IMG/VR virus record: IMGVR_UViG_3300035204_002446
Coordinates: 1-22,051 of that record
Source of the DNA: a virus
Reading direction: 5' to 3' (one strand)
Length of the DNA: 22,051 nt
Made by a program: the position numbers and the translations under genes. This document shows positions 2,317 through 20,847 of the stretch, in pieces (the first letter of the stretch is position 1; every line of letters starts with the position of its first letter). Under the pieces are notes generated by a model. It searched no databases and was not told the origin of the DNA. It was given only the letters and a program-made list of their open reading frames with translations.

Positions 2317-4034
2317 TAGTATTTTAAATCGTATGCAATTTTATCTTCGCCGTTATGGGTAAACGTAATAATTTTTTGGGTATTTATATAAGGTATAAAA
2401 GCTATCTTAAAAAATCCCTCATGAAAGGCTTTTCCCTCAAGCCACAGTAGGTCGTCCATTTGGGGTAAGTATTCTACCGCTTTGTGTACATATGGGTTGC
2501 CTTCTAGTATGGGGAAGTATTTTTTGTTTGTTGCAACATACAGTTTGTGTTCTGGGTATAGGTCATTTATTGATCTAAATAGACTTGTTGATAGAAAAAT
2601 ATCCCTTTCTTTTCCCGGCATAACAAAGAGAATTTTCTCATTTTTGTCTCCTTCTGATAGCTCGTTAAGTGGATCTAAGATATCCATGCTACTCTTCGAA
2701 GGGTATTCGTATTTGGTTTTTGGAGATTTATCTATAAAATTTTCCAAGGTTTTGCATACATTTTTTACAGCGTAGTTATCAATTACCCATTGTCTTGCTT
2801 TCTTGCCGGCGTTTTCTCTCCCTTCTTCGGGCATTTCATACACCTTATGTATACTTTGAGCTATCGACGCTGGTGATGTGGAAGCTTTTATGTATTCAGA
2901 TTTGTGTTCCCTATACTCTGTCCAATCGAGCGGTACTGAGTGTGCTTCAGCCTCACACATTTCTTCTCCACAACTATAGTTTGTAACAAGGGTAATAAGC
3001 TCCGCAAGTTTAGCTTCTTGAATAGGTATCTCTTGACCACCAGAAGTAAACGGGTGGCAGTAGACATCCATAAGGTTATATATTTCATTAAGCTGCGACT
3101 CTGAAACGCCATATGAAGGTATCGGTGTATAGCAAGAATCTTGTAAGCCGCAGAACTCACAAGAGCTGCCTTCCCCTTCGAAGATTTTTACACTATAATT
3201 TTTGCAATTTCTGCAGAAGTGTGTTATCAGTATATCTTCTTTAGGTAGGCTTACTTCTGCTGCCAGCTTATTAATATCCCACCCCTCTGACCAGCTTGTG
3301 TGGAGCAAGAGTTTACTTTTTGTTTTATAATTTTTTTTCCATTCAGAAAATCCTTGAAGCAAGTTCGGCACTGATTTTCTCATCTGATTTCTAAAGACAA
3401 ATCCTACTATAAATGTGTCTTGATCTATTTTATTTTTTTCCCGAAGAGAGAACCTTTCGTGTTTTAACAACCTGTAAAAAAACTTATCTTCTATAGGGCC
3501 GTGAACGGTTTTTGCGTGAGTAAGCCCTAGCTTGTGTAATTCTTTCGTGGCGAAATCAGACCAAATCCAAAAGTTATCACTTTTTTTAGCTGCTTCTATT
3601 GCTGCGGGAAGTATGGGTAAGGAGTCTAGCGTTGTCCATATAATAGATGTAATCTTTTTAAACCAAGGTTTTTCTATTGCGTGTATTAGCCCCCATATGT
3701 CTTGTACACCGATGTAGATATCTGGTTTCTCTTGGTTTATAACTTTGTCTAAATTATATACGCCGTAATAAGCTTTTTTAGACTTGTCTTCGCTTTCTGC
3801 AAGAAGTTTTTTTTCTCTGGGGTCAGATGTTATACAGCCGATTGATTTCCAAGGGGTTTTTTGTAGCTCTATTGAGTCCTCTCGTTCTCCGCAGCAGAAA
3901 TGAACAATATCATATTTGTTTAGATTGTACAAGTAAACCAAAATGGCCTTGGCGGTTCTGCCAAAGCCAGTCTTGGCCAAACTGAAGTCAGTTTGAAATA
4001 GTATTTTTTTTCTACCAGAGGTCATCTTCTTCAT
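2316..4034 (-). CDS. Glycosyltransferase: GT4-like GT-B with a zinc-finger insertion, fused to the N-terminal half of a GT9 domain
   Basis: Residues 8-435 resemble a GT4 enzyme: ILFQTDFSLAKTGFGRTAK at the N-terminus, and a C-terminal Rossmann half with the donor-site stretch HPFTSGGQEIPIQEAK. A Cys-rich insertion at about 273-301 (CRNC, 14 residues, CEFC, then another C) looks like a zinc ribbon. From about 465 to the end (KILFVMPGKERDIFLSTSLF ... NPYVHKAVEYLP) the sequence is the first half of a GT9 domain, and its second half is the next gene. The only longer start is a GTG at 4037; ATG at 4034 is chosen, and ATG 4025 is also possible. The 5' end overlaps the SSB-like gene by 23 nt. Targets could be modified phage DNA, virion proteins or host surface glycans; sequence does not say. 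Confidence 0.65.
   Translation of the reverse strand: MKKMTSGRKKILFQTDFSLAKTGFGRTAKAILVYLYNLNKYDIVHFCCGEREDSIELQKTPWKSIGCITSDPREKKLLAESEDKSKKAYYGVYNLDKVINQEKPDIYIGVQDIWGLIHAIEKPWFKKITSIIWTTLDSLPILPAAIEAAKKSDNFWIWSDFATKELHKLGLTHAKTVHGPIEDKFFYRLLKHERFSLREKNKIDQDTFIVGFVFRNQMRKSVPNLLQGFSEWKKNYKTKSKLLLHTSWSEGWDINKLAAEVSLPKEDILITHFCRNCKNYSVKIFEGEGSSCEFCGLQDSCYTPIPSYGVSESQLNEIYNLMDVYCHPFTSGGQEIPIQEAKLAELITLVTNYSCGEEMCEAEAHSVPLDWTEYREHKSEYIKASTSPASIAQSIHKVYEMPEEGRENAGKKARQWVIDNYAVKNVCKTLENFIDKSPKTKYEYPSKSSMDILDPLNELSEGDKNEKILFVMPGKERDIFLSTSLFRSINDLYPEHKLYVATNKKYFPILEGNPYVHKAVEYLPQMDDLLWLEGKAFHEGFFKIAFIPYINTQKIITFTHNGEDKIAYDLKY
2322..2328 (-). promoter_or_regulatory. Candidate programmed -1 frameshift site (T TTA AAA)
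   Basis: In the frame of the GT4/GT9 gene the codons run GAT TTA AAA TAC TAA, so the heptamer T TTA AAA is in the correct phase for tandem -1 slippage and the stop is two codons further. After slippage the frame reads ATA CTA ATG CAT and continues into the GT9 C-terminal half with no stop, giving a protein of about 955 residues. A weak 6-bp stem (TAATGC/GCATTA, loop 17) starts 3 nt after the heptamer. No strong upstream Shine-Dalgarno-like stimulator is seen. Confidence 0.5.
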
Positions 4035-4578
4035 CACTTAACTCGCTTGACTCGACGGGCGTACGGTCTGGGCTACTTGTTTGAGCGACGTTCTGCTTGA
4101 AGGACTTCTCTATTAACTCGTCTGTAATTTTAAAGCTGTCTACGAGAAGGTGAGAGAGGTGATGTTGTAGAAGCTCTGCTTCCCCGAAACTAAAACCAAT
4201 TAAGAAACTAACTTTCTCTGTTGAATCCTCTTTATTTTCCTTGGTAACGCTAAAGGAAAACCCTCTTTGTTCCTGTTCGCCTTTTCTTGTGTAAGGCCCA
4301 AAAGTGAACCTAACTATCTGATTGCTTCCATGGTATCCTGTAAATGGTTGGTTACGCTTAATCGAATCTATGATTGAAGCTATTTCCAGAGCGCTAAATT
4401 TAACGTTTACTTTTTTGTTTGGGTTATCTTTGTTTTTCTTGAAAGAACCGATCCTTCTCTCGCTATTCCAACCGTCCTGTTTGATTAGGGTACTAAAAAA
4501 TGCGTTGTCTCTCTTGTTCAGATAGAAGGAACAGGCCGTGCCTGTAACTTTAGCTGTTGGCTTGTAGAAATGTATCAT
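4012..4578 (-). CDS. Putative single-stranded DNA-binding protein with acidic tail, 188 aa
   Basis: The first 125 residues are predicted to be mostly beta-strand with scattered basic and aromatic residues (FYKPTAKVTGTACSFYL, GSFKKNKDNPNKKVNVKF). The helix EAELLQHHLSHLL follows. The C-terminus is a flexible, strongly acidic tail ending DEEDDLW. Such a tail with a terminal aromatic residue is typical of phage and bacterial SSBs, where it recruits partner proteins. No specific OB-fold signature is identifiable by eye, so the call rests on composition and context: it lies directly after the polymerase core and has its own strong promoter. The expected +1 is one base before the ATG. The 3' end overlaps the glycosyltransferase start. 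Confidence 0.4.
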   Translation of the reverse strand: MIHFYKPTAKVTGTACSFYLNKRDNAFFSTLIKQDGWNSERRIGSFKKNKDNPNKKVNVKFSALEIASIIDSIKRNQPFTGYHGSNQIVRFTFGPYTRKGEQEQRGFSFSVTKENKEDSTEKVSFLIGFSFGEAELLQHHLSHLLVDSFKITDELIEKSFKQNVAQTSSPDRTPVESSELSDEEDDLW

Positions 4579-4585
4579 AACTATA

Positions 4586-4613
4586 AGTATATGGGGTTTT
4601 TTAGGATTGTCAA
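4586..4613 (-). promoter_or_regulatory. Sigma70-type promoter P2 with A6-CC spacer
   Basis: TTGACA (4613-4608) and TATACT (4591-4586) are separated by 16 nt (atcctaaaaaacccca). Seven bases separate the -10 from the ATG at 4578, so +1 falls at or one base before the start codon. The upstream polymerase gene's TGA stop (4612-4610) lies inside the -35 box, the same arrangement as P1 and P4. Confidence 0.8.
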
Positions 4614-7165
4614 TCGTTTTTTAGCTCAGACAATTTAGTATAAATTTTGTTTGTTTGGACCGCTATCCTGTCTGCAAACACGACTTCATCTTTCTTTACT
4701 CCTTTAACGATAACAATGTTGCTTTCTTTCGGAGGTTCTCCGTTATTTTGGACAACGCATTCTTCAAGCTTTTTGGAAAAAATCATGACTTTGGAGCTTC
4801 CTGTTTCGTCTTCTACAAACATTCTCAAGTAGTCATTTCCGTTCCGAGAAGTCCCTACGTAGGGCTTTGCGTCTACTGTGCCGATAAAGGACACCCTGTC
4901 ATCAACCTCAGAATCTTCCACTTGTCGTAGAGATAGTAGTTCTCTGTTTTTTTCTGAAAAAATATCTCTTAAGTTTTTATTATAGGTATATCCAAGTAGG
5001 TGTTTTTCGTAGTACCAGTTTGCAAATGATTCTGAATATTTATTTTTAAAATAAATTTCTTTGTATGGTTTGGATTTAGTTTTAATTGTGTTAAGTCTAG
5101 ACTCCTTGATTAAGGGCTTTCCTTTTTCATCTTTTTTGTTTGATATTGCTTTAACAACGTCTACCAGATCGTAGTCTTTTTCTTTTGCTAGAAGCATTGC
5201 TGCTTTCTTTTCTTTCTTGGTTAATATGTTCCACAGTTGAGCCTCGTAAACAATTTTGCTGCGAGACATCGCAAATCCCTCAAAAGTCCCCGCTTGAATT
5301 AGGGCTGAAAGAATACCAATAGTTAGACCAGACTCTTTAGCCCCCTCAAAGACTTCAAATTTGTTTGAGTAATGATTTTTAAAGTTGGCTAGTTTTTCGA
5401 TGGACCTGTCTGATATACCTTTGATAGATAGCAGCCCAAATCTGATATTATCTCCTTCAATTTCAAAATCCATGTTAGATTTTATGATGTGTGGGGGTAG
5501 GAGTCTTGTATTAAAGTAATACATTTCTCTTTGAATCTTAGAAATTTCACTAATTGGATCTGGTTCGTGTCGAGTCATCTTAAGTAAACTCAAAAAGAAT
5601 TGCTGAGGATATTTAAACTTAAGATAAATGGTTGTTGCCGCTAAAGCGGCGTATGAAATAGAATGAGATTTATTAAAAGAATAGTTCGCTGAGTCTTCCA
5701 AGACTTTCCATAATATGTCTCCGATTTCTGGCTCAAGATTATTCTCTTTAATCTTGTTTTTGATTTTTCTTTTCCATTTCCGAACTTCTTTTACCTTTTT
5801 CTTGCCTACGATGCGCCTTAACATTTCTGCTTCGTCAAGTGTGAAGCCGATCTTGTTGGCCATCTTCATTAACTGTTCTTGGTATAAAGCTACACCACCT
5901 GTCGATGTTAAGATGTCATCAAAAAATGGGTGGATCGGATCGTAGGTTCCGTCTCCTACGTAGGCTGCATATTGATCGACAAAGTTAAGTGCCCCCGGAC
6001 GAGCCAAAGCTAACACCGCGCTTAGTTCCTCTAGGGTTTTAGGTTTAACTTTTTGGCAGACACGAAAGTTTGTTTCTGCTTCAATCTGAAATAGACCATG
6101 AGGAGTTCTAAGGTGCTGGAGGTTATCATATATAAGCTGATCCTTTAGGTCTATGTCAGACACATCAATGCCGGCGCTTTTGCATACGTCGTCAACAACT
6201 GACACCGCTCTAAGACCAAGTATATCAAGTTTAACATTAAAAATTGAAATCCAATTCATATCGTACGAAGCAACATGACTACTCTTGTCTGAGGTTAATT
6301 CTGTTGGGCAACAGTCGTTAAGCTTTTCGAACGAAAGGGAAATAGCGGATGGGTGAACCCCTTTATTTTTTGTAAGACCCTTTAGTTTGAGGGCTATGTT
6401 GTAACATTCTTCATTTTCGTCACACCAATCCTTGAATTCCTCCTGTTCTGCGTACGCTTCTTTGAGGTCTTTTATCTGTCCGAATACCTTTGGTATAAGA
6501 GACGACACCTTGTTCATTTCTTGCTCGGTTTTTCCTCCCGCGACTTTACCGCATTCCTTAATACAAAGTTTTCCGCTAAGGGTATTGAGGGTGATAATTT
6601 TTGAAGTTTTACCAATGAATTTTTGTTCAAGATACTCAATTACTTTTTGGCGATTGTAGTAACAAATATCAAGGTCTACATCCATCATCAATGAACCATC
6701 AAGATATGTTATTCCGTCTACAACAGATTTTTTCGCTCTTATTTTGGAGATAAATCTTTCAAAATAAAGACCGTGTTCCAGTGGGTCTACTTTTGTAACT
6801 CCAATAAGATATAAAACAAGGCTCCCTGCCGCGCTTCCACGGCCAAGCCCCGTAGGAATTTCATTTTCTTTGCAAAAATTAATTACATCCCAAACAAGGA
6901 GAAGGTAATCAATAAACCCAAGCTCTTTGATTGTCCTAAGCTCATACTCTAACCTTTCTACATACTCTGCTTTATGTTCTTTGCGAATACTGCTCCACAT
7001 TTTCTTCCTACCATCTTCGCATAGCGCCTCTAGAAAATCTTTATTACTGATATCTTCGCTTACGCCAAGTAGTCTTTTATATTTGGTATCGATTTCAAAA
7101 GAGGGAAGTCTAACCCCGTGAAGGGGTATGTCCAGCTCTTTAAATTGTGATAAAAATTTACTCAT
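4610..7165 (-). CDS. dnaE: DNA polymerase III alpha, catalytic core lacking the PHP domain (DnaE-type), 851 aa
   Basis: This is the replicative polymerase core. Numbering starts at the ATG at 7165, which overlaps the exonuclease stop as ATGA; a longer GTG start is less likely. GLGRGSAAGSLV is at 106-117. The catalytic aspartates lie in MDVDLDIC (D164 and D166, matching E. coli D401/D403), and the third is D314 in VKLDILGL (E. coli D555). FNKSHS and a helix-hairpin-helix segment (IRFGLLSIKGISDRSI) follow. An OB fold (DDRVSFIGTVDAKPYVG...) covers roughly the last 100 residues. The protein ends right after the OB fold, so the tau-binding C-terminal domain of bacterial DnaE is absent. The PHP domain is encoded separately about 1.1 kb upstream in the same operon. 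Residue 1 corresponds to the linker just after PHP, so the palm-thumb-fingers are complete and probably active. Confidence 0.95.
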   Translation of the reverse strand: MSKFLSQFKELDIPLHGVRLPSFEIDTKYKRLLGVSEDISNKDFLEALCEDGRKKMWSSIRKEHKAEYVERLEYELRTIKELGFIDYLLLVWDVINFCKENEIPTGLGRGSAAGSLVLYLIGVTKVDPLEHGLYFERFISKIRAKKSVVDGITYLDGSLMMDVDLDICYYNRQKVIEYLEQKFIGKTSKIITLNTLSGKLCIKECGKVAGGKTEQEMNKVSSLIPKVFGQIKDLKEAYAEQEEFKDWCDENEECYNIALKLKGLTKNKGVHPSAISLSFEKLNDCCPTELTSDKSSHVASYDMNWISIFNVKLDILGLRAVSVVDDVCKSAGIDVSDIDLKDQLIYDNLQHLRTPHGLFQIEAETNFRVCQKVKPKTLEELSAVLALARPGALNFVDQYAAYVGDGTYDPIHPFFDDILTSTGGVALYQEQLMKMANKIGFTLDEAEMLRRIVGKKKVKEVRKWKRKIKNKIKENNLEPEIGDILWKVLEDSANYSFNKSHSISYAALAATTIYLKFKYPQQFFLSLLKMTRHEPDPISEISKIQREMYYFNTRLLPPHIIKSNMDFEIEGDNIRFGLLSIKGISDRSIEKLANFKNHYSNKFEVFEGAKESGLTIGILSALIQAGTFEGFAMSRSKIVYEAQLWNILTKKEKKAAMLLAKEKDYDLVDVVKAISNKKDEKGKPLIKESRLNTIKTKSKPYKEIYFKNKYSESFANWYYEKHLLGYTYNKNLRDIFSEKNRELLSLRQVEDSEVDDRVSFIGTVDAKPYVGTSRNGNDYLRMFVEDETGSSKVMIFSKKLEECVVQNNGEPPKESNIVIVKGVKKDEVVFADRIAVQTNKIYTKLSELKND

Positions 7166-7800
7166 AACTCTATTTGCCACTTCAACTTATTCCATACTTT
7201 TAAATTTAGTTCTAAATCAACCAAGGCATCGTGAAGCTTGTTCGGGTTATGTTGTATTTCAAACTCCCTACCTAGGGCAGCAAGGTTAGTTCTGATGCCC
7301 TTCCTTCTTTCGTGATACATTTTGTATTGATATTGTATTAGACTTTCAGCATTCTTGTAATGCATGTCGTACTTTACTCCTTTAGCTATGCAATTCGTAT
7401 CAATGATTTTGTCAACTAAATGTCTATAATCTTTGTTCATGTAGTTGTAGTAGTCTTTTATCAAGTAAAGATCAAAACCAAGAATGTTGTGTCCTACTAC
7501 GTAATCAGAATTATCTAACCAATCTTCTATGGTTGGGAAAATTTCCTCAGGAGTTACCCCTTTTTCTTTTAGGGTCTTGGGGCTAAACCTTGTTATCCTT
7601 GCCGCCTCTGGGCTAATTTCTAGCTTTGTGTCCCACTTGATGTAGAAATTTTTTTCAGCTATTTTTTTATCTCCAACAGCTTTTATCATTGCTATTTGCC
7701 AAGGCAGGTTATGGCAAGAATTAAGACAAAGATTAAATGTCTCACAGTCTATAAAGACGTATTCTTTTTCCTTGTCAAATCTTAAAAAATCTTCGTCCAT
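7162..7800 (-). CDS. DnaQ-like DEDDh 3'-5' proofreading exonuclease, 212 aa
   Basis: All three exonuclease motifs are visible. Exo I is FIDCET (D18, E20), Exo II is VGHNILGFD (D110), and Exo III is HDALVD (H190, D195), which makes it the DEDDh subtype of bacterial epsilon subunits. The length is close to that of epsilon (about 240), but no clear clamp- or alpha-binding tail is seen. It lies 2 nt after the PD-(D/E)XK gene and overlaps the polymerase core start by 4 nt (ATGA), so it is probably co-translated with the enzyme it proofreads. The separate PHP domain lacks key metal ligands, so this protein is probably the only proofreading activity of the replisome. No Shine-Dalgarno site is evident. 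Confidence 0.92.
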   Translation of the reverse strand: MDEDFLRFDKEKEYVFIDCETFNLCLNSCHNLPWQIAMIKAVGDKKIAEKNFYIKWDTKLEISPEAARITRFSPKTLKEKGVTPEEIFPTIEDWLDNSDYVVGHNILGFDLYLIKDYYNYMNKDYRHLVDKIIDTNCIAKGVKYDMHYKNAESLIQYQYKMYHERRKGIRTNLAALGREFEIQHNPNKLHDALVDLELNLKVWNKLKWQIEL

Positions 7801-7802
7801 AA

Positions 7803-8315
7803 TTAATTTAGCTTTGAGATTGGTATGTTATAGCAGTCAGCTTTAAAATAAAAATCTGCACTCGGTGGCGAATCTGGGTCTAACTCTCCTTCTTTATAGA
7901 ATTTCGCTTCTTTATAAAAATCTTCTTTACTTATTTTCCCCAAGTACCATGCGGTGGAATGGTCGTCTAGCACACTTACGAAAGCATACTCGTTGCACTC
8001 TTGTTCGGTGTTGAAGTCTGCTACCGTACAGTTATAATGCTCTCTTGGGGGAACCGTTCTCTCTTTTGTTTTAACGTCCACTTTAATTTTATCTCCGTAA
8101 ACTATGTCGTAATCATAGGTGTCTTCGACTTTACCCTTAAGAACTCTTTCAACAACCGCTTCACCTAGGTAAGCTACTATCGCACCCTTTCCTTTTCTAA
8201 TAGAGTTATTAAGAAGAGGTAATGCTTTTGCTCTGGCCTTTGCTTTTCGGAGGGCTTCTTCTGAGATTTTAAATTTTTTCACATTTTTCCTTCCAGCTTT
8301 CCACACAAAACTCAT
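7803..8315 (-). CDS. PD-(D/E)XK-superfamily nuclease-like protein inserted between the two DnaE parts, 170 aa
   Basis: A Lys-rich helical N-terminus (KISEEALRKAKARAKALP) is followed by GEAVVERVLKGK (E52), then DYDIVYGDKIKVDVKTK with D70 and D80-V-K82. This is the E...D...D-x-K layout of the PD-(D/E)XK fold (restriction enzymes, Vsr, some free-standing phage homing endonucleases). The C-terminal half is rich in aromatic and acidic residues and is not recognised. ATG 8315 lies 47 nt inside the PHP gene; a GTG at 8282 would shorten the overlap. Its place between the PHP and polymerase genes suggests either a replication nuclease or the mobile gene that split dnaE. The product has not been matched to a named family. 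Confidence 0.6.
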   Translation of the reverse strand: MSFVWKAGRKNVKKFKISEEALRKAKARAKALPLLNNSIRKGKGAIVAYLGEAVVERVLKGKVEDTYDYDIVYGDKIKVDVKTKERTVPPREHYNCTVADFNTEQECNEYAFVSVLDDHSTAWYLGKISKEDFYKEAKFYKEGELDPDSPPSADFYFKADCYNIPISKLN

Positions 8316-9036
8316 CGCTGGTCATGTGTTCTATTTCTGGTTTCTCGAGTGTGCTGCGGTTATTAATACAACGAAAAGTTAAATACGCTTTGAAGTCTTT
8401 CTTGTTTTTGTAAAAAATGCTTTGAGTTTTTTGAATCTTAGCGCCTTCCGCTTCGGCTTGGCTTATTACTTTTTCTTTCACTATGTGATCAAAGGGGAGG
8501 TTGTTGTCTTCCATAAAATATGTTAGCTTTGCGAAATCAAATTCCGGCACACAGATGTTACTGTGAAGGGTGTTATTAAAAAGATACGAATCATAAAATG
8601 GTATAACCATGGCAAGGTCTTTATTGCTCCACAACTTTTTCAGATTTTTATGGTCAATTCTCGGTTGGTAGTAAAACCCATCTCTTGAGGCTTTGGAAAA
8701 TATCTTTATTAACCTCTTATATCCTTCCTCATTTTTTAGGAGAATGACTATTTTATTATTTGTCTTTAGGGAGTCTGCATCCTTTTGCTCCATGTCATTA
8801 CAAATCGTAAGCCTTACTCCAAAGATTAATTTGATATTTAGGTCTTTTGAATTTTGGTAGGCTTGTAAGAAACCACTCATGTTGTGATCTATTAGGACCA
8901 TTTCTTCCATATTATTTTCTTTGCAAATATCAAAAATAGAGTCTGCCTCATCAGGTTCAGGAGAGCTATCTTCGAGAGTCAGTATTGACCTACCTAAACT
9001 ATAATGCGACTTAAATAAGGGAACGACCTCATCCAT
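8269..9036 (-). CDS. Stand-alone PHP domain of DNA polymerase III alpha (DnaE N-terminus), 255 aa
   Basis: The order of motifs follows the N-terminus of DnaE: SHYSLGRSI (residues 10-18), VLIDHNMSGF (canonical TDH-nmxG), LIFGVRL (canonical IxGxE) and the NEEGYKRLIKI helix. The C-terminus, CINNRSTLEKPE...TSDEFCVES, matches the end of the PHP region just before the palm. Several metal ligands are changed: the first His of HxH/HSD is Lys, and the Glu of IGxE is Arg. Catalytic PHP activity is therefore probably lost and the domain is structural. The rest of the polymerase is encoded two genes downstream. The gene has its own promoter with -10 TATAAT six bases before the ATG, predicting a leaderless mRNA. 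Confidence 0.85.
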   Translation of the reverse strand: MDEVVPLFKSHYSLGRSILTLEDSSPEPDEADSIFDICKENNMEEMVLIDHNMSGFLQAYQNSKDLNIKLIFGVRLTICNDMEQKDADSLKTNNKIVILLKNEEGYKRLIKIFSKASRDGFYYQPRIDHKNLKKLWSNKDLAMVIPFYDSYLFNNTLHSNICVPEFDFAKLTYFMEDNNLPFDHIVKEKVISQAEAEGAKIQKTQSIFYKNKKDFKAYLTFRCINNRSTLEKPEIEHMTSDEFCVESWKEKCEKI

Positions 9037-9042
9037 AAAACA

Positions 9043-9070
9043 ATTATAAGGCTTTTTTTATAAAGGTCAA
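9043..9070 (-). promoter_or_regulatory. Sigma70-type promoter P4, predicted leaderless start
   Basis: TTGACC (9070-9065) and a perfect TATAAT (9048-9043) are separated by 16 nt (tttataaaaaaagcct). Six bases (tgtttt) lie between the -10 and ATG 9036, so the expected +1 is the A of ATG. The A-tract occupies the same spacer register as in P1-P3. The upstream nuclease gene's TGA stop (9069-9067) is inside the -35 box. Confidence 0.8.
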
Positions 9071-10035
9071 GCCCAATCGAACGGATCTTCTGTGGTTGAC
9101 ACTTCTTCGTATGGATGTGCAGGGCATCCTTCGTATTTTTTCTTAATTATTTTTTGTCCATCCTTAGGTGAACCAAGTTCGCTTTTGGTGAATGATCCTT
9201 TGAGAATCTCACCATCCTCTGATTCAAGAGAGTAATAATCAAATGGCTCTAGGTAGGGACACTTCCAGTGTTTCCCTGCTTTGCAAAAGAATTTCGTTTC
9301 CATTTTATCTTTTGCGTAGTTAGTCTTAGCTTGGCCTTCTGTGAAGGAATTTATTATTTTGTACATGTGAGCAAGATAATGCTCGAAGCCGTCAAGTTGC
9401 TCTTGAGGAATTGTAATTTGTTGCGATGGTTGTCTTGGGAACTTTAAGAATAAAAATTCCACCTCTACATTCTTCGAGGATTTTGGCCATTTTCTTTTGG
9501 CTGCCAGTGTATACGCCATTGCTTGTATGTTAGACTCTAGGTCTTTGGCGGGAAACTTTCTTTTGCTAGACTTGTAATCTACTATTTTGATTTTATCTTT
9601 ATATTTAATTTTTTTGTCAATGAAACCCATGATTTCATACTCGGGGTTTTTGTTCTTGATTGTAAAGCGGATTTCAGGTTTATCAACTGCACCACCTTTC
9701 CCAAAGAAGTCTGAATTTAGGCCAACGTAGACCATGTCTAGGCACATTTCATGGTTTTCTTCGCTGTGACAGCCGCTTTTTAAAAGGAGTGTTTTGATCA
9801 ATCTTGCAACAGGTTTACTTGCTGCGGTAAAGCCTCGCTCCATTATTCGTTCGAAATGTTTTTTGTGTTTTTTGTTGAGTAAAAGCTCAAAAATAGTATG
9901 ACATACCGTTCCGCGACAAGCGCCATCGTTTTGTGTCTGTGGAATTTTCTCGTGATAGTTGCACCAGTATTTCCAAGAACAATCTTCAAGGGTTTTTATT
10001 CTTGATGCCGAGAGTACTTTTTTCTTTTTGTCCAT
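9067..10035 (-). CDS. RecB/Cas4-like PD-(D/E)XK nuclease, possible Fe-S protein, 322 aa
   Basis: The sequence follows the RecB-nuclease pattern: SASRIKTLEDC at the N-terminus, RGTVCHTIFE with H46, E121, GFID (D140), VDYKSSK (D153 and K155) and the motif-III helix SNIQAMAYTLA (Q171). Cysteines at 19 and 25 near the N-terminus, and C251 and C259 near the C-terminus, are placed as in AddB/Cas4-type enzymes that hold a 4Fe-4S cluster around the nuclease fold. This makes a cluster possible but not proven. Phage members usually act as exonucleases in recombination or DNA processing. It has its own promoter and a strong GGGAGG upstream, although 15 nt from the ATG is unusually far for a Shine-Dalgarno site. 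The gene ends inside the -35 box of P4. Confidence 0.85.
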   Translation of the reverse strand: MDKKKKVLSASRIKTLEDCSWKYWCNYHEKIPQTQNDGACRGTVCHTIFELLLNKKHKKHFERIMERGFTAASKPVARLIKTLLLKSGCHSEENHEMCLDMVYVGLNSDFFGKGGAVDKPEIRFTIKNKNPEYEIMGFIDKKIKYKDKIKIVDYKSSKRKFPAKDLESNIQAMAYTLAAKRKWPKSSKNVEVEFLFLKFPRQPSQQITIPQEQLDGFEHYLAHMYKIINSFTEGQAKTNYAKDKMETKFFCKAGKHWKCPYLEPFDYYSLESEDGEILKGSFTKSELGSPKDGQKIIKKKYEGCPAHPYEEVSTTEDPFDWA

Positions 10036-10172: not shown

Positions 10173-11270
10173 TTATATAATTTCTAATAATTTTAAATTA
10201 TTATTAAACTCTTCAAATGGCACATCTGAATAAGAAAGGTTTACTGGGTACTGTGTGTGGTAGTCTCTGTGTTCTTCTTTGTTGCCCTCCAGCTTGCCCT
10301 CTGCCATGATTTTAGCCACACTTGATATGGAGAAGGCTGTCGCTTTTTGCATGGCTGAGAACCCACCTGAGTCTCCCCAAATAGCTATTTCTTTTTTCCA
10401 CTCTACATTTTCTCCTTCCACAAAGGCTTTAATTAGGACGACATCATCTACGTCGTCTGTATTTTGGCACCCTCTTTCAATAGCTTCCCTTACACATTCT
10501 TCACTTTGGTTCTCTATTAAGAATCTGACTATATCTCTGTGCCCTTCGTATCTTAGCGTTTTATAGTAGCAATTTGCTACGCCCTTAGCCTTCATGGTCT
10601 GTATTGTGTGAGATGCTCCCCCACTAGTATAGAAAGCCTCTAGTTTTCCGAGTGTATTGCATTCTACTGATTCTAGCCCGCTCATTCCTTTTACTATTTT
10701 TAGTTCTCCGTCTTCTAAAATTTCACAATCATCTTTGTATTCGTTTATCAATCCGTCCACTGACCAAGTAACAACATAGTCTAGGGGGTGGTTTACTTTT
10801 GAATCAGGTAGGCCACCAACCATCATTCTGATTGTCGTCGCTCGCCTGTGTAGCTGTCTACACCCTTCTTCTGCTAAGATATTTACCCATCCCGGCGCAA
10901 GACCAAGGTCTGTAAAGACGGGTGTCTTCCCGTGGTTCTTAGCTGCCTCGTTTATGTTTTGTGATACGTCTACCCTGCCCCCTAGGTCACAGTAACGAAG
11001 TGAATTATTGTTGCACCAGTGCCCAACTTCTTCTGTCTGATGATACGGCAAGCTGCTTATAACGATGTCGGGCTTTTCGAATATCAAGGCGCGCTCGAAG
11101 GTTTTATCTTTATCTGTTAGATAAAATGCGCCATCATCTGGAATATATTTCCTAAAATTGTCTGCTGCTCCAGCGTATGAATCTACACCAACGACATGAA
11201 ACCCCAGCTTGCGCATGGCGTAGCATATAGCTGTGCCCATTCTACCTACACCTAGAACTGCTGCCTTCAT
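10173..11270 (-). CDS. Lysine 6-dehydrogenase / saccharopine-dehydrogenase-like enzyme, 365 aa
   Basis: An N-terminal NAD(P)-binding Rossmann fold starts LGVGRMG (G7, G9, G12), with an acidic end to the second strand (VVGVDS). The pattern then follows the saccharopine dehydrogenase family: VISSLPY, YCDLGG, DLGLAPGWVNILA, VGGLP, TWSVDGLINEY and LEAFYTSGGAS. The last two stretches resemble bacterial lysine 6-dehydrogenase most closely, an enzyme that oxidises L-lysine to aminoadipate 6-semialdehyde. Saccharopine dehydrogenase, which gives the same semialdehyde, is the main alternative, and carboxynorspermidine dehydrogenase is less likely. It is the last gene of the operon, overlaps the 56-aa gene by ATGA, and shares the transcript with an aldehyde dehydrogenase that could use its product. 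A terminator follows. Confidence 0.75.
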   Translation of the reverse strand: MKAAVLGVGRMGTAICYAMRKLGFHVVGVDSYAGAADNFRKYIPDDGAFYLTDKDKTFERALIFEKPDIVISSLPYHQTEEVGHWCNNNSLRYCDLGGRVDVSQNINEAAKNHGKTPVFTDLGLAPGWVNILAEEGCRQLHRRATTIRMMVGGLPDSKVNHPLDYVVTWSVDGLINEYKDDCEILEDGELKIVKGMSGLESVECNTLGKLEAFYTSGGASHTIQTMKAKGVANCYYKTLRYEGHRDIVRFLIENQSEECVREAIERGCQNTDDVDDVVLIKAFVEGENVEWKKEIAIWGDSGGFSAMQKATAFSISSVAKIMAEGKLEGNKEEHRDYHTQYPVNLSYSDVPFEEFNNNLKLLEII

Positions 11271-11733: not shown

Positions 11734-12307
11734 TTGGTTTATTTAAAAAGTCAGACGGTCTAAGTTCGTGAAACTCCCAGTCCTGCTCTTGAGATTCGCT
11801 ACCCCCTCCTTTGCCGTCGCTCTCTCCTTTGCCAAGTTTTGCTTTTCCTTTTTCTGACTTAGTTATTTTAGATAGGCTCCCTAGAACTGGTTGACCCCTC
11901 TGTAGTTTTTGTCTTATTTGTCTTTCTATTTGTTCATGAAGACCTCTGCTGTAGGGTAGCGCAAATAAGCGAGGCTCAGGCGTATCGCTTTTATAAGTAA
12001 AAACATTAAGCCACGAATCTTTTTTTTCTTCCGCTGACTCAATCAAGAAATAAATGGCCCCTTTAGATTTAGTAACCTTGTTGGGCTCCTTAACAATCAC
12101 CCAATGGATCAATACTTTGTCGGGCATGTCACTTTTAAGGGCTGGCCACCCCAAATATGAATGGATGGTCGACCAAAATACAATAGTAAAAATACAAAAG
12201 GTTGCAATGCAGGCAGACTTGAAATACCACTTAACTGAAGACTCCGTAAGCAGCCAGAAAGTTAGGCTGCCAAAGACTAATAACAAAATTGGTAATGCTA
12301 CGCTCAT
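11726..12307 (-). CDS. Membrane-anchored protein with soluble C-terminal domain, 193 aa
   Basis: Two N-terminal hydrophobic segments (about 2-20 and 29-46) are followed by a soluble domain of about 90 residues. That domain contains a likely beta-rich part (LIHWVIVKEPNKVTKSKGAIYFLI...WLNVFTYKS). A low-complexity, Lys/Gly/Ser-rich linker (KSEKGKAKLGKGESDGKGGG) and a short acidic end follow. No catalytic motif is recognised. It starts in an ATGA overlap with the APS-kinase-like gene. It could be a membrane-tethered host-takeover or envelope protein; this is inference only. Confidence 0.6.
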   Translation of the reverse strand: MSVALPILLLVFGSLTFWLLTESSVKWYFKSACIATFCIFTIVFWSTIHSYLGWPALKSDMPDKVLIHWVIVKEPNKVTKSKGAIYFLIESAEEKKDSWLNVFTYKSDTPEPRLFALPYSRGLHEQIERQIRQKLQRGQPVLGSLSKITKSEKGKAKLGKGESDGKGGGSESQEQDWEFHELRPSDFLNKPND

Positions 12308-12738
12308 ATTTTTAATAAATCCTTTAGTTCTGACCAGCTATCTTCTTCTTTTTGGTCTGTCCTGATAGTATAGTGTGGGTTTCCTACTTCGAAATCCTCA
12401 ACGTGATACTCTTTTCTCAAGTCTCTTTTAGATGTTAGGCACACCTCTGTCACGTGACCCTTGTTGTTTCTTTTTAAATCATTTCTGAGATGTAAGTAAG
12501 GGTTCACAATGCTCATGACTACGTGACCGTAAGGCAAGCTCTTTTTGCTTAAGTAGGTGGCTACGGCGTTTGCGTTTCTAATGTTTTCTTCGCGCCCTTC
12601 GCGGCCATAATTTGTATTAGTAAACATTTCTCTAAATTCATCACCATCAATAATGAATGGTGTACCTAGGTGATCTGCTAACAGTTTCCCTAGGGTTGTT
12701 TTTCCTGACCCGGGTTGTCCGTATATTAAATAAATCAT
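12304..12738 (-). CDS. APS-kinase-like (CysC-type) P-loop kinase, 144 aa
   Basis: Walker A is GQPGSGKTT near the N-terminus. It is followed by IDGDEFREMF (APS kinase DGDNxR), a GREGREENIRNANAVA helix (family DRxENIRRxxEVA) and NPYLHLRN (family SPYxxxR). Adenylylsulfate kinase makes PAPS from APS and ATP. The protein is shorter than CysC (about 200 residues), lacking part of the C-terminus, so the substrate could be another nucleotide or a modified base. ATG 12738 is chosen because it forms an ATGA overlap with the upstream gene; a TTG at 12744 would add two residues. With no other sulfur-assimilation gene in view, its role remains open. Confidence 0.7.
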   Translation of the reverse strand: MIYLIYGQPGSGKTTLGKLLADHLGTPFIIDGDEFREMFTNTNYGREGREENIRNANAVATYLSKKSLPYGHVVMSIVNPYLHLRNDLKRNNKGHVTEVCLTSKRDLRKEYHVEDFEVGNPHYTIRTDQKEEDSWSELKDLLKI

Positions 12739-12959
12739 TTCCAACTAAAATAACCATAAAAATTAAAAATAACCAACACGAAAGACATGGCTGCTGTCGG
12801 ATAGGCTTTTTTGTTTAAACAATAAATACCCACGAGAAGGTTGCCAGCTATCCAAACAAGCCAAGACTGTATCATCTCGTTTGCATTAAGGTAATATCCT
12901 AGGAAAATAAGAAATGCTCCAAGCCACCCCAGTAAATGTCCTTCATAAAATTTTTTCAT
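12735..12959 (-). CDS. Small three-pass membrane protein (PnuC/YgjV-like pattern), 74 aa
   Basis: Three hydrophobic segments at about 9-24, 31-49 and 54-72 are rich in Trp, Tyr and Gly: WLVWIAGNLLVGIYCLNKKAYPTAAM and VIFNFYGYFSW. The spacing of W-x-x-x-N and YGYxxW resembles a half-unit of PnuC-type vitamin transporters or YgjV-like inner membrane proteins. At 74 residues it is far too short for a full transporter unless it oligomerises. Both ends are ATGA overlaps, with the Coq4-motif gene upstream and the APS-kinase-like gene downstream. Confidence 0.6.
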   Translation of the reverse strand: MKKFYEGHLLGWLGAFLIFLGYYLNANEMIQSWLVWIAGNLLVGIYCLNKKAYPTAAMSFVLVIFNFYGYFSWK

Positions 12960-14043: not shown

Positions 14044-14658
14044 TTATTCTGCCTGCTCTAAGGGCTTAACTAAGTTTGCAGGTAGTTCGTTTATTTCTGT
14101 AATCTCTCCATTCTTGTTCGTTTGGAATCGGAAAGCTATCTTTTCGTCACCCGTTTCCTTAAATATTCTTTTTTTTGTTACCACTTGTTTAAAGGGTTTA
14201 ATTTTAACAAGAGTAATGGTTGCCTCCACGGGTTTCTCATCTTTTTTTCTATACACATGTACTGTTACAATATTTTCCCCTTTCGTTGCTCCGCGAAAGG
14301 CAACAATTTCCTCATTAAATCCGACGACCGTTCCTTCTGTGTTTGTGGCTAGGCTATTGTTTCTTGACTTGCCAAGAGCGTCGTGATTTAAGCTGATTAA
14401 GCTACCTTCTCCCCCTTCTCTATTGTTAAAGCTTACTACGTGACCTGTTGAAGCTTGCACGTATAAGTCTAGATCGTCTTCACTGTTGCCATCCCAAGTT
14501 AATATGACCTCGTACAAGGTATTTGGTGGGCGCATTTTTACTTGTTCTTCGTCGGCCTTTAGGAGGAATAAAATAGCGACCAACATTAACAAGCAGCAAA
14601 AAAGCGCGTCAATGAATGGCCTAAACGAAAAGAATTTTCTGTATCCTTTATTAATCAT
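14044..14658 (-). CDS. ExbD/TolR-like proton-channel subunit with a DUF2135-like C-terminal domain, 204 aa
   Basis: The N-terminus has a cytoplasmic basic stretch and one membrane segment, FRPFIDALFCCLLMLVAILFL. D17 sits at the cytoplasmic end of that helix, the place of the proton-carrying Asp in ExbD, TolR and MotB. Residues about 45-150 (VILTWDGNSEDDLDLYV ... NHDALG ... ENIVTVHVYR) resemble the DUF2135/YfaP-type beta domain rather than the small ExbD or OmpA-like periplasmic domain. A beta-rich tail follows. The ATG overlaps the end of the ExbB-like gene by 8 nt, supporting a two-subunit complex in the inner membrane with its sensor or effector domain in the periplasm. A DUF2135-type end on an ExbD stem is unusual. 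Confidence 0.75.
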   Translation of the reverse strand: MINKGYRKFFSFRPFIDALFCCLLMLVAILFLLKADEEQVKMRPPNTLYEVILTWDGNSEDDLDLYVQASTGHVVSFNNREGGEGSLISLNHDALGKSRNNSLATNTEGTVVGFNEEIVAFRGATKGENIVTVHVYRKKDEKPVEATITLVKIKPFKQVVTKKRIFKETGDEKIAFRFQTNKNGEITEINELPANLVKPLEQAE

Positions 14659-15112
14659 TTGGGTTTAACTTAAATTTTAAAATCATCAACTGAACTTGGA
14701 GTAAAAGGCTAAAAACAATCCCACAAATAGTTGTATAAAATGCGGTATTCAATCCCACCTTGAGTCCTGACACAATGTCTGATACTTCGGACCCCTCTTT
14801 GAGACTGGTGCTAGTAGCTACGCAGAGGCCAAAGACTGTTCCGAGTAAGCCGAGCGAAAAAAAGTGCTCTGCCGCAAACCAACCTACTTCTGCGCGTTTT
14901 AGGATTTTGCCTCTAGTCTCTTTCTTTCTGTCAGCTAAGTAACATAATTTTCCAACAAGAGCAGACGCAATCACGTACAACACTATGATAACTATAGTTA
15001 AATAACTTACGTCATTCTTAACCATCGTGGAGATCGCTCCTTTTGTTTCAGAGAAGAAGATTGCGGTCAACAATACCGCATTAAGTAGAAACCATTTTGT
15101 AAAAGTCGTCAT
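14651..15112 (-). CDS. MotA/TolQ/ExbB-family proton-channel subunit, 153 aa
   Basis: The family signature is in the last third: AEHFFSLGLLGTVFGLCVATSTS (about 81-103), then SGLKVGLNTAFYTTICGIVFSLLLQ (115-139). The latter has the paired Thr residues that line the proton path in TolQ and ExbB. Four hydrophobic stretches are visible (about 7-20, 36-58, 84-100, 120-146). The protein is short for the family (TolQ is about 230) and lacks most of the cytoplasmic loop. A Shine-Dalgarno AGGAAA precedes the ATG. The next gene is the matching ExbD-like partner. A phage-encoded stator pair could energise an envelope function or protect against superinfection; this is inference. Confidence 0.8.
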   Translation of the reverse strand: MTTFTKWFLLNAVLLTAIFFSETKGAISTMVKNDVSYLTIVIIVLYVIASALVGKLCYLADRKKETRGKILKRAEVGWFAAEHFFSLGLLGTVFGLCVATSTSLKEGSEVSDIVSGLKVGLNTAFYTTICGIVFSLLLQVQLMILKFKLNPND

Positions 15113-15913: not shown

Positions 15914-16029
15914 TTTCTGGCCCTCTCTACCTTTAGTCTTCTTTTAAGGCTGGCTGCTTCTGTTTCCAGCTTGCTTATTTTAGACTCTAGAGTAGAGATT
16001 TTCCATTTTAACGCACTCAAATTTGTCAT
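15856..16029 (-). CDS. Small coiled-coil protein, 57 aa
   Basis: Starting from ATG 16029, whose A is shared with the TAA stop of the aldehyde dehydrogenase gene (TAATG), the frame reads LKWKISTLESKISKLETEAASLKRRLKVERAR. This is three to four heptads with Leu/Ile at a/d positions, a likely coiled coil, followed by a polar tail. The last 58 nt overlap the start of the 135-aa gene in another frame. If translated, coupling to the dehydrogenase is the likely route. It was found by reading the gap between the larger genes. Confidence 0.5.
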   Translation of the reverse strand: MTNLSALKWKISTLESKISKLETEAASLKRRLKVERARKWRNSTYLTPTQEKYSTKS

Positions 16030-17655: not shown

Positions 17656-17931
17656 TTAGTTGTCTTTATTTTGCGCTAGTAGGAGGAGATAGTCAACTAA
17701 GTTTCTTATCTTTTTAAGTTTAATTATTTCATTGTAATATTCTTCCCCAGATTTAGAGTTATACCCTATGGAATAGTTTTCTCCTAGGCTTCTTCCGTAC
17801 CTAAAAGAATTAAAAGACAGTTCTTCTTCCCGTTTTTCTAGGCATCGTTTGATTATTTTTACAGAGTCTTCTTCTTTTACGATCTCAGCGAGCGTAAGTT
17901 CTATTTCTTTAAGATATTTGCCTCTTTCCAT
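17656..17931 (-). CDS. Helical hypothetical protein, 91 aa
   Basis: Two charged helices flank a central polar loop: residues about 3-37 (LKEIELTLAEIVKEEDSVKII...) and 63-86 (GEEYYNEIIKLKKIRNLVDYLLLL). The loop is rich in Ser, Tyr, Gly and Asn. No known domain is recognised. The start overlaps the primase gene by 31 nt, and a GGGAAGAGAT stretch just upstream can serve as Shine-Dalgarno. It could be a primase or helicase accessory protein by position only. Confidence 0.6.
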   Translation of the reverse strand: MERGKYLKEIELTLAEIVKEEDSVKIIKRCLEKREEELSFNSFRYGRSLGENYSIGYNSKSGEEYYNEIIKLKKIRNLVDYLLLLAQNKDN

Positions 17932-18824
17932 TCCAGTATCTCTTCCCGATTCATGTCTCCAAAGTCGTTCTGCGTGGGGAAGGCGACCTGTATTTGGTGG
18001 GGATCAAAGTGACTTTTAAGTTTTTTTATCGCCAGCTCAACGCCTTTGTTGCCCGCACTATTATTATTGGAGTCATCGTTAAAAGATACAAAAATTTTAT
18101 TTGGATCAAGCTTAATTAACAAGCTAACTAAAGACGGGCTTACGTTGAGCCCGAAGATTACCATTGTATTTTTGATGCCACAATCCCATAGAGCAAGCAT
18201 GTCTCCTATACTTTCTATTAATATTACTTCTTTTTCTTCTCTTAGTATTTTTTGGTTTACTTGAAGGGGGTATTTCCATTCTGAGGTTCTCCCCCTGTGT
18301 AACCATTTAGGAGTGTTTTTGTCTTTTGGTATTTCCTTTATATACCTTCCTGTTACTCCTATTAGGTCTTTCTTGGAGTTGAATATAGGAAAAACATATC
18401 TGTTAGCCATCGTGCCGCCGCTTACTATCCCTCCACTAAACAGCTTGAGTGTGTCTCTTGATACTCCTCTACTCTCCCAGTAGGAATGATCTTGAATAAT
18501 TTTTTCAAGGTAGGATTTTGGGAAAGTCTTTGAACCAGAAACAGAAGGGCGATGAGCTCTCTTAATTTCGCCATTCATTTCCCATTTCTCTTTAAGAATT
18601 GTCTTTGCTTCGTCTGCGTTCTTTAACCCTAGGGAAAGCTGTATTAGGTATTCGAAAGAGCCGCTAATCTGTTTACTGAAATCAATAAAATGACCTGTGT
18701 CTTTCCTAACAGAGAGAACCGTATCGCTGCTAGAATCACGATACAGGGGTTTCATTCGGAATTCTCTTCCGTTATCCTTGATGTTAGAGTAACCAACATC
18801 TAGAAGAATATTTTTGAAATCCAT
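17901..18824 (-). CDS. DnaG-like primase with degenerate zinc domain and Toprim domain, 307 aa
   Basis: The Toprim core is clear: ILIESIGDMLALWDCG (E204, D208), VIFGLNVS, and FVSFNDDSNNNSAGNKG (D250, D251). The middle region (about 110-165) matches the RNA-polymerase N-lobe of phage DnaG-like primases (NRYVFPIFN...LIGVTGR). The N-terminus keeps the order of the CHC2 zinc domain (YRDSSSDTVLSV ... FIDFSKQISGSFEYL), but all four zinc ligands are replaced, so template recognition must work without zinc or by a partner. It has no C-terminal helicase-binding domain of DnaG size. The ATG follows directly on the TAA of the helicase gene, supporting a helicase-primase pair. Confidence 0.85.
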   Translation of the reverse strand: MDFKNILLDVGYSNIKDNGREFRMKPLYRDSSSDTVLSVRKDTGHFIDFSKQISGSFEYLIQLSLGLKNADEAKTILKEKWEMNGEIKRAHRPSVSGSKTFPKSYLEKIIQDHSYWESRGVSRDTLKLFSGGIVSGGTMANRYVFPIFNSKKDLIGVTGRYIKEIPKDKNTPKWLHRGRTSEWKYPLQVNQKILREEKEVILIESIGDMLALWDCGIKNTMVIFGLNVSPSLVSLLIKLDPNKIFVSFNDDSNNNSAGNKGVELAIKKLKSHFDPHQIQVAFPTQNDFGDMNREEILEWKEANILKK

Positions 18825-20312
18825 TTACATTAGGTCTCCATCTCTGTCACTTCCATCTTGTAGAGAGTACTGCATTCTTTCTCTTTCCGCAAGGTCGGCG
18901 GCGCTCCCAACCTCTTCAACGTTGAAATTTCTTACGTCAAAATTAAGAAAATTATTCTCGAATCTTACATTCCCGTTTTCGTCTGTTCTTCTCACTAGAT
19001 CGTGATGTCCCGCTGCGTCTTTCCCTTGGAACCTTGTTTTAAGGGTGATAAGCTTATGTGTTCCGAAGTCTTCTCCATCGCTAGCAATTTCATCTACAGT
19101 TTTTCTTCTGAAAATCCCGACGAAAGAAGCAAACCACTGAAGTCTGTCTGACTGAGCTATCGCAGAGCTATCATCTGTAACTCCCCCAGCGCGTCGGTTA
19201 AAGTTTTCTCCACTTCTGTTCATTTGCATCGCTGTTATTATTGGGCAGTTTAATTCTTCAGCCAGTTTCTTGAGTTTGTCCACCTTGTCTCCTATGGCTT
19301 GGTATTCGGCCCAGTTGCTGCCTACTCTTTCTCCTGTTAGCTTTACGTAATCATACCCAAGCACAAATGATTCACCTCTTTTTACGTGGGTCATTTTCCA
19401 TCTTCTCGCGAAGGAACATAGTTGATCTATGGTCTTGTTGCCTACGGGGTAATGGTAAAGTTCGCAATTGCCTATTTTTTTAAAAGCTTCTCTAACTTTT
19501 TCTACCAGCTCTGGGACTTGGCGCCACTTACCGGTCTCAAGATGCCATAGGGACGCTCCTGTTAGTGCTGATGCAATTCTGAATTTTACGTCCTGAGTGT
19601 CCATTTCTGTATCAAGGATTAGGGCTTTCACTTTATTGTTCGTGGAAATTTTTCTACATAAGTCCATTATGAATGTGGACTTACCCTGACCGGGTCTTGC
19701 TACAATGGCGTATAGATTTCCGGGACGTAATCCTCCATACATCCTGTTGAATTCTTCATAGGGGGTAGAAAACCCAGACTCTTCTTGAGGGTTGTCTCCT
19801 CTTTCCTCTATCATTGCTTCTATGTCGTTTAGAAGCAACTCGGGTTCTTTTTCTAAAACTTCAATCTCTTTTAGGTGGTCTCCATAAAGAGAGTCAACTG
19901 TAGAAACTATTTCGTCAATTTCTTTTTCCCCGTTTTCTAGTAGGAACTTTTGAATGTCTGAACATTTATGATGAAGGTTTCTCCTGACTGATAGTTTAGC
20001 AAGTTCTTGAGCTGATTCAAACAGCCCTTTCGCGTTTATTGAGGTGAAGGAGATTGACTCTAAGTAATCGTATATATTGATGTCATCCTTGAACCCTATT
20101 CCCATAAGGTCTATTTTTTGAGCAAGGATTACTGTGTCAACGCTTTCGTTTTTTGTTATAGTGTTTCTTAGAACGCAGAAGATGCAGTTATGTACTTCGT
20201 TTATAAAGTCGTGTTCAGAAATGTATCTTTCTATATCTGCAAAAAGTTTGGGGTTCTTGATTATTCCACCTAGGACGTGTCTTTCTATCTGTATCGAGTA
20301 TATTTCGTTCAT
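18825..20312 (-). CDS. dnaB: DnaB-like replicative helicase, 495 aa
   Basis: The N-terminal domain matches DnaB (SIQIERHVLGGIIKNPKLF, residues 6-24, and the helical bundle to about 110). The RecA-like C-terminal domain has Walker A ARPGQGKST at 205-213. Motif H1a is LILDTEMD, Walker B is VLGYDYVKL, H3 is MQMNRSGE and H4 is SDRLQWFASFVGIF. An arginine-containing KTRFQGKDA near the end is the likely Arg-finger region. The protein unwinds the fork as a hexamer and should load or partner the primase encoded next. A stop lies six bases upstream in frame, so ATG 20312 is the only reasonable start. No Shine-Dalgarno precedes it, and the promoter at 20395 gives a leader of about 76 nt. Confidence 0.93.
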   Translation of the reverse strand: MNEIYSIQIERHVLGGIIKNPKLFADIERYISEHDFINEVHNCIFCVLRNTITKNESVDTVILAQKIDLMGIGFKDDINIYDYLESISFTSINAKGLFESAQELAKLSVRRNLHHKCSDIQKFLLENGEKEIDEIVSTVDSLYGDHLKEIEVLEKEPELLLNDIEAMIEERGDNPQEESGFSTPYEEFNRMYGGLRPGNLYAIVARPGQGKSTFIMDLCRKISTNNKVKALILDTEMDTQDVKFRIASALTGASLWHLETGKWRQVPELVEKVREAFKKIGNCELYHYPVGNKTIDQLCSFARRWKMTHVKRGESFVLGYDYVKLTGERVGSNWAEYQAIGDKVDKLKKLAEELNCPIITAMQMNRSGENFNRRAGGVTDDSSAIAQSDRLQWFASFVGIFRRKTVDEIASDGEDFGTHKLITLKTRFQGKDAAGHHDLVRRTDENGNVRFENNFLNFDVRNFNVEEVGSAADLAERERMQYSLQDGSDRDGDLM

Positions 20313-20430: not shown

Positions 20431-20847
20431 TTAAATTTTTATTTTGAAAGTATCTTCGATAAACTTTTTTGAAAGGCTTTGCATGTCACTCTCTTCCAGT
20501 TCTATCAATTTGTAGTTATTTTTTTCAAGCCAAAGCTGCTTTTCATGATCTCTTTTTATGGAGGCAAGGTATTTAGCTCTCGAGTTTCCGTGAAAAAATT
20601 TATTGAAAGAAGAGTGCTGCGGCCCGTTTACTTCAATGGCTACTTTGATTGTCGCGTTTAGAATATCTACCTTAAGTCTTGTTCCGTAAACGGGGAACTC
20701 TTCGTACACTATATGACCAAGCCAATAAGGTTTAAAAAAATCCTTGACTTGCTTTTGGAGTTTTGATCTGGATTTCTTGTCCCAATCTATGAGGTATTTA
20801 GAAACATTTCTGTTTTGTAGTCTGCCGTATGCGTTAAATAACCTCAT
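20431..20847 (-). CDS. DUF559/Vsr-like endonuclease, 138 aa
   Basis: The core is typical of the Vsr/DUF559 branch of the PD-(D/E)XK fold: LKVDILNATIKVAIEVNGPQH with D61, E72, N74-G75 and Q77-H78. It is followed by RDHEKQLWLEKNNYKLIELEESD, the helix and last strand of that fold. The N-terminus (about 1-45) is basic and helical and may bind DNA. Such enzymes in phages can nick mismatched or branched DNA or act as free-standing homing nucleases; the sequence does not decide. The ATG shares bases with the TAA of the glycosyltransferase gene (TAATG). The stop is 8 nt before promoter P3. Confidence 0.75.
   Translation of the reverse strand: MRLFNAYGRLQNRNVSKYLIDWDKKSRSKLQKQVKDFFKPYWLGHIVYEEFPVYGTRLKVDILNATIKVAIEVNGPQHSSFNKFFHGNSRAKYLASIKRDHEKQLWLEKNNYKLIELEESDMQSLSKKFIEDTFKIKI

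Follow-up and report, generated by a model that had tools for sequence, protein, structure and literature searches.

How is a C-family DNA polymerase organized when its PHP domain is encoded by a gene of its own? This question is raised by the IMG/VR virus record IMGVR_UViG_3300035204_002446, whose entire sequence of 22,051 bases, itself a fragment, was analyzed and is referred to as the window. All C-family polymerases have been said to hold the PHP, palm, thumb, and fingers domains in a single polypeptide (PMC3666897), and the PHP domain has been said to be universally present in these enzymes (PMC12926913). In the window, the alpha subunit of DNA polymerase III (Pol III), DnaE, is encoded in two parts, a PHP protein of 255 amino acids and a polymerase core of 856 amino acids, and the gene for a DnaQ-like exonuclease of 212 amino acids lies between them. 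We favor the reading, with a probability of about 75%, that the PHP protein serves as a non-catalytic scaffold in a replicase that also comprises the exonuclease and the core, and that this replicase belongs to a large group of uncultivated tailed phages.

Identity of the two halves and position of the break

The 255-amino-acid protein matches the Pfam PHP model and covers positions 62-292 of phrog_405 as well as positions 12-252 of the full-length DnaE model PRK05673. Its structure and that of the core were predicted with AlphaFold2 as single unaltered chains, each alone. The PHP model has a mean confidence (pLDDT) of 89.8; in the PDB it matches E. coli DnaE best (E 4.2e-14, TMq 0.78), and the alpha-epsilon chimera of E. 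coli (4gx9) is also among the top matches. Profile and predicted fold therefore agree with the assignment as a DnaE PHP domain that had been made in a preliminary description of this DNA, the open reading frames (ORFs) and coordinates of which were also confirmed.

The core starts at GTG 7180, with ATG 7165 as an alternative start. It scores highest with DnaE models and not with PolC, and it matches PF07733 (E 4.4e-60), the finger domain PF17657, and HHH_6 (PF14579). Coverage extends over positions 316-1080 of phrog_405 and 277-1054 of the 1146 positions of PRK05673; the approximately 90 C-terminal model positions, which represent the tau-binding domain, are absent, in agreement with the earlier view that the core ends after the OB fold. 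The OB region itself is predicted to form a beta-barrel at residues 760-842 with matches to folds of the single-strand DNA-binding protein type. The predicted structure of the core (pLDDT 87.2) matches DnaE in the PDB with E 2.5e-40. Residues D167, D169, and D319 of the 856-amino-acid protein align with the catalytic aspartates D401, D403, and D555 of E. coli and are invariant in 52 of 52 sequences. The palm aspartates are thus kept, as had been claimed, but their numbering has to be corrected: counted from ATG 7165 they are D162, D164, and D314, and the pair that had been given as D164 and D166 was one step off. A clamp-binding motif was not found, as the split cores shown hold no Q-x-x-[LM]-F where QADMF of E. 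coli aligns; in the same alignment, fused relatives carry QxxxF in this region.

To locate the junction, the phage parts were aligned with E. coli DnaE and 19 further DnaE enzymes of one chain. In E. coli numbering, the PHP protein stops near residues 250-255 and the core begins near residues 256-260; the break lies within the final helical stretch of PHP (about 250-260). The core consequently holds the equivalent of E. coli residues 256-278 (approximately), the last turn or two of PHP before the LPxF motif (E. coli L278). The first 20 residues of the core, a part of PHP in enzymes of one chain, are modeled with low confidence in the absence of PHP (pLDDT 54-64). The total length over the junction is about that of single-chain enzymes and is about 10 residues shorter in some relatives; no large piece is missing. 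A split between PHP and palm had been recognized correctly, but its supposed place in a free linker was not borne out.

Distribution and origin of the split

Searches with core and PHP gave 433, 566, and 575 viral relatives in overlapping sets, and all counts given here refer to the loci that were fetched. PHP and core were both present in 232 loci, representing 171 distinct sequence pairs, and were encoded in different ORFs in every one of them; an unsplit version, for which a search had been suggested, was not found among these relatives. The split persists even in L264, which has the most divergent core that was used (44% identity to the window). The one-polypeptide rule for C-family polymerases therefore does not hold in these loci, while the palm aspartate triad and the Pol3 alpha and finger domains are as expected for the family. 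An assembly error, a frameshift, or a recent break is ruled out by the presence of the split in 232 of 232 loci.

As a control, 80 viral loci with the nearest enzymes of the single-chain type and 80 loci from bacterial genomes were scored with the same profiles. Among the viral controls, PHP and core lay in one ORF in 73 cases and a separate PHP was found in none; of the other seven, two are truncated where the contig ends, and the core ORFs of five, about 1040-1055 amino acids long, gave no match to the PHP model. Fused enzymes were found in 58 of the 80 bacterial-genome loci, a further 21 have core ORFs without a match to the phage PHP profile, and one (L093) belongs to the split clade. In an unrooted maximum-likelihood tree, the split cores form one group (support 100/100, 100% of bootstrap trees) on a stem of 2.18 changes per site. 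Most likely, the split arose once in the ancestor of this clade.

The members of the clade appear to be phages without close isolated relatives, as no protein above about 33% identity over a long match was found in the isolate phages searched. The locus L093 (52% core identity), which comes from a bin named 'Candidatus Lokiarchaeota' and is the only family member found in genome contigs, is flanked by the same phage genes. A host origin was rejected on these grounds, and L093 is most likely a misbinned phage contig. One member of 178 kb encodes lambda-like tail proteins J and L, RIIA/RIIB, ribonucleotide reductase, PhoH, and ThyX, which is consistent with a large tailed phage of the siphovirus type. 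The family phrog_11165 was considered as a possible PHP-less core family and dismissed, its top match being an ordinary fused mycobacteriophage enzyme of 1111 amino acids.

The exonuclease gene is located between PHP and core on the same strand in 171 of 171 loci. Its DEDDh site (D18, E20, D110, H190, and D195) is invariant in 81 of 81 relatives, and the protein ends 17 residues past D195, which is the maximum within the family. In the window, a second gene lies between the two halves, encoding a PD-(D/E)XK-like protein of 170 amino acids without a match in Pfam, PHROG, NCBIfam, or PADLOC. It was found at the junction of PHP and exonuclease in 21 of 171 loci, scattered over the clade. The statement that two genes separate the halves is thus correct for the window, but only the exonuclease gene is constant in the clade. 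Since so few loci carry the 170-amino-acid gene, it is accessory, and a homing insertion is ruled out as the general cause of the split. That the number and order of parts are unusual is true in comparison with isolates and bacteria but not within this phage clade, where the arrangement is the fixed rule.

Probable function of the separate PHP protein

An active PHP site with nine metal ligands occurs in part of the C family. Nine PHP positions serve as a reference for metal binding, which in E. coli are R10, H12, D19, F44, D69, H83, G134, D201, and R203 (PMC3666897). The phage protein has P6, K9, R16, H51, R75, K95, F147, S206, and F208 at these positions. The ligands had been regarded as partly lost; instead, the loss is almost complete, with eight of nine ligands missing in the window, where only H51 is kept, and all of them missing in 58 of 63 relatives. 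The 63 sequences are largely uniform at these sites, having P in 62, K in 61, R or K in 63, D in 58 (H in three), R in 62, K in 62, F in 63, S in 60, and Y or F in 62. Judged from this pattern, a new and mostly basic set of residues has been fixed, as opposed to random decay, and the PHP protein is predicted to be inactive as a metal enzyme. The fixed set agrees with the published observation that most lost PHP ligands have given way to positively charged residues, which can take the place of the metal (PMC3666897).

For PHP, the ratio of non-synonymous to synonymous substitution rates is about 0.04 among close relatives, counted where synonymous sites were not saturated, and 21 positions are invariant and 30 nearly invariant in the alignment of 63 PHP sequences, which indicates strong purifying selection. 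It is therefore highly improbable that the PHP gene is a dispensable, decaying remnant of a once fused polymerase, although the loss of all metal ligands, an evolution faster than that of core and exonuclease, and the loss of further segments in the more diverged PHP of a deep subclade would fit such a decay. In addition, wherever a locus extends far enough upstream, an intact PHP gene is present, at core identities down to 44%.

The conservation of the new residues could also be explained by a PHP protein that is no longer a part of the polymerase and whose pocket (K9, R/K16, R75, K95, D149, and S206) has been remodeled for an activity or ligand of its own, with DNA ends, nucleotides, or pyrophosphate as possible targets. 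The strict conservation of the K, R/K, R, K, and S residues at the former ligand positions, the invariant motif FYDS at residues 147-150, and the pyrophosphatase activity that has been claimed for the PHP domain of E. coli (PMC4822814) speak for this explanation. It is nevertheless unlikely, as the replacement of a metal ligand by a basic residue is known from inactive DnaE PHP domains, where it is structural (PMC3666897), the new residue set shows no obvious catalytic pattern, and the gene always shares an operon with a core that otherwise has no PHP. A joining of the two halves into one chain after translation or by RNA processing, by means of a split intein, an intron, or a frameshift, is scarcely credible. 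Intein-split DnaE is known from cyanobacteria (PMC3919608), but PHP and core are separated by complete, unrelated genes in all loci, profile searches found no intein domain on either protein, and the C-termini of PHP and the N-termini of the core differ in length and sequence among relatives without a conserved junction. The absence of intein residues from the ends, as first described, is in line with these results.

In some jumbo phages, the replicase is PolB and a minimal Pol III in split form is present besides (PMC7824862), and the split enzyme of the window might likewise serve in repair or lagging-strand synthesis while another polymerase copies the genome. This was addressed in 26 longer relatives of 44-178 kb (G001-G026). 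Exactly one Pol III alpha core was found in each of them, as in the window, and an unsplit dnaE elsewhere in the same genome, which would have contradicted the split, was thus not encountered in these contigs of unproven completeness. There was never more than one Pfam PHP match per record, and the two records without a match represent the deep subclade. PolA (PF00476) had no match in the 26 records, not all of which were searched for PolB. The neighborhood of the split enzyme also comprises a DnaB helicase, a DnaG-type primase, and a candidate single-strand DNA-binding protein. On these grounds, a mere repair or lagging-strand role beside another replicase is quite unlikely.

The scaffold reading accommodates these observations and is linked to the biochemistry of E. 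coli Pol III, the alpha subunit of which unfolds cooperatively and in which the integrity of PHP sets stability and activity (PMC3666897). Furthermore, PHP ligand loss goes together with a separate epsilon-type exonuclease (PMC3666897). The E. coli alpha fragment 1-270, which is soluble and binds epsilon in full (PMC3642679), and the low model confidence at the start of the core when PHP is absent also speak for this reading. Based on gene order and strand in 171 of 171 loci, on selection, and on the known biochemistry of PHP and epsilon in E. coli, we infer that PHP, exonuclease, and core form a common replicase. As a chain of its own, PHP would bind the palm/thumb face of the core at the place that the tethered PHP domain occupies in DnaE, and could thereby complete the fold of the core, stabilize it, and help to position the exonuclease, having no chemistry of its own. 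The DEDDh protein would act in proofreading, held by PHP and/or the core in a manner unlike that of E. coli epsilon, and the basic residues at the ligand positions would probably replace the metal ions structurally, as has been proposed for other degenerate PHP domains. The genes of the module overlap or abut, which suggests translational coupling and might keep the subunits in balance. The gene order, being invariant, points to a single ancestral event at the border of PHP and palm, which may have been the capture of an exonuclease gene at this site. A more specific version, in which PHP is an obligatory trans scaffold with a rebuilt basic pocket in a replicase core of three chains that has a tailless proofreader and makes no canonical contact with a sliding clamp, is put forward tentatively. 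No bacterial-type beta clamp (PF02767) was matched in the 26 longer relatives, which range up to 178 kb.

Several points weigh against the scaffold reading. Unlike 1-270, the E. coli Pol III alpha fragment 1-255, which ends near the phage cut, is insoluble (PMC3642679); the cut in the phage PHP is thus near the limit, and the protein presumably depends on a C-terminal helix of its own, which is predicted at residues 245-253. In E. coli, the tail of epsilon wraps around PHP (PMC3642679). The phage exonuclease is devoid of an epsilon-type C-terminal tail, and its attachment must therefore differ from that in E. coli. PHP also diverges faster than the core, with 31-84% identity between window and relatives compared to 44-90%, and the 26 longer relatives are contigs of unproven completeness.

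Genomic context and comparison with known systems

The module is transcribed from the minus strand in the order RecB/Cas4-like nuclease, PHP, 170-amino-acid protein, exonuclease, core, and 188-amino-acid protein. The commonest order in relatives is the same, with the 170-amino-acid gene as an optional member (Table 1).

Table 1. Genes of the replication module in the window
Feature	Position	Strand	Supporting data
RecB/Cas4-like PD-(D/E)XK nuclease	9067..10035	minus	PF12705 E 5.3e-20, phrog_69; upstream of PHP in 152/171
Stand-alone degenerate DnaE PHP subunit, 255 amino acids	8269..9036	minus	Pfam PHP E 2.9e-17; phrog_405; AlphaFold2 fold
Accessory PD-(D/E)XK-like protein, 170 amino acids	7803..8315	minus	Family alignment, pattern E52, D70, D80-V-K82
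DnaQ-like DEDDh 3'-5' exonuclease, 212 amino acids	7162..7800	minus	PF00929 E 1.1e-15
Polymerase core (palm, thumb, fingers, HhH, OB), 856 amino acids	4610..7180	minus	PF07733, PF17657, PF14579
188-amino-acid protein, candidate single-strand DNA-binding protein	4012..4578	minus	Acidic C-tail; downstream of core in 122/171
DnaG/TOPRIM-type primase, same replication module	17901..18824	minus	phrog_47 E 5e-21; dnaG model E 1e-13
DnaB-type replicative helicase, same replication module	18825..20312	minus	phrog_19 E 1e-57; DnaB_C E 2.9e-27

The 188-amino-acid protein ends with the acidic sequence EEDDLW, and most relatives have an acidic C-tail and a final W. A Whirly match of the otherwise unassigned N-terminal domain stayed below threshold (E 0.038), and no relative was found among protein families or in the PDB. 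This protein is a candidate for a new single-strand DNA-binding protein of the replisome. A DUF559/homing-endonuclease-like protein (20431-20847, minus strand; phrog_9084, E 7.5e-7) is encoded near the dnaB helicase gene. The phage contig also carries metabolic genes on the minus strand at 10173-11270, 12304-12744, 12735-12959, and 16029-17642, the products of which are a saccharopine-dehydrogenase-like protein, an APS-kinase-like P-loop kinase, a PnuC-like transporter fragment, and an aldehyde dehydrogenase (Pfam E 3.5e-120). A MotA/TolQ/ExbB-like membrane protein encoded at 14651-15112 on the minus strand (E 3.8e-5) is uncommon for a phage contig.

Single-chain phage DnaE proteins of phrog_405, such as those of Streptomyces phage NootNoot, Geobacillus phage GBK1, and the gut phages MT835632 and MT836290, share the succession of PHP, palm, thumb, fingers, HhH, and OB, the catalytic aspartates, and the location in a phage replication module. 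They differ in having PHP and core in one ORF of 1028-1208 amino acids, their cores are 26-29% identical to that of the window, and several keep an active-type PHP site, unlike the window PHP. DnaE1 and DnaQ of E. coli resemble the phage proteins in the inactive PHP, the separate DEDDh proofreader, and the homologous palm. However, the PHP domain of E. coli is covalently part of alpha, and the PHP-wrapping tail of epsilon, the clamp-binding motif, and the tau-binding domain complete the bacterial enzyme; none of these features was seen in the phage proteins. PolC has the same order of PHP, exonuclease, and polymerase, but it is one chain with the exonuclease inside PHP, whereas in the phage the core is DnaE-like and an individual gene, placed where PHP ends, encodes the exonuclease. 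The PolC-like order is a resemblance only.

Split C-family polymerases are known from other systems as well. Cyanobacterial DnaE is encoded by two genes, as in the window, but its parts are joined by the split intein (PMC3919608) that the phage proteins lack. The split minimal Pol III of group 2.2 jumbo phages (Iyer et al. 2021, PMC7824862) is also a phage C-family polymerase in separate proteins. It is, however, split inside the catalytic region, its genes are distant from each other, PHP and other Pol III domains are absent, and a PolB replicase is present alongside; in the window, the core is intact and PHP is present and linked. The isolate phages Rossellomorea phiT1, Mycobacterium Cuke, Cellulophaga phiST, and Escherichia Ro157lw also have dnaE in more than one ORF, but these breaks lie within or after palm and fingers, PHP stays with the palm, and no exonuclease lies between the parts. 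In phiT1 and Cuke, dnaE is broken at the same point at the palm/finger border (phrog_11165 about 295-300; L086 4885-5037, L345 4436), possibly a recurrent break site, and in phiST it is broken elsewhere. A separate PHP gene or subunit was not described in the literature searched, the coverage of which was partial.

The role of a PHP domain without metal is a long-standing question (PMC3666897, PMC12926913). With PHP as a separate subunit, its effect on polymerase activity, stability, and proofreading becomes measurable by adding or omitting it. The clade itself shows that a replicase can tolerate a break between PHP and core even when the cores have diverged at more than half of their residues.

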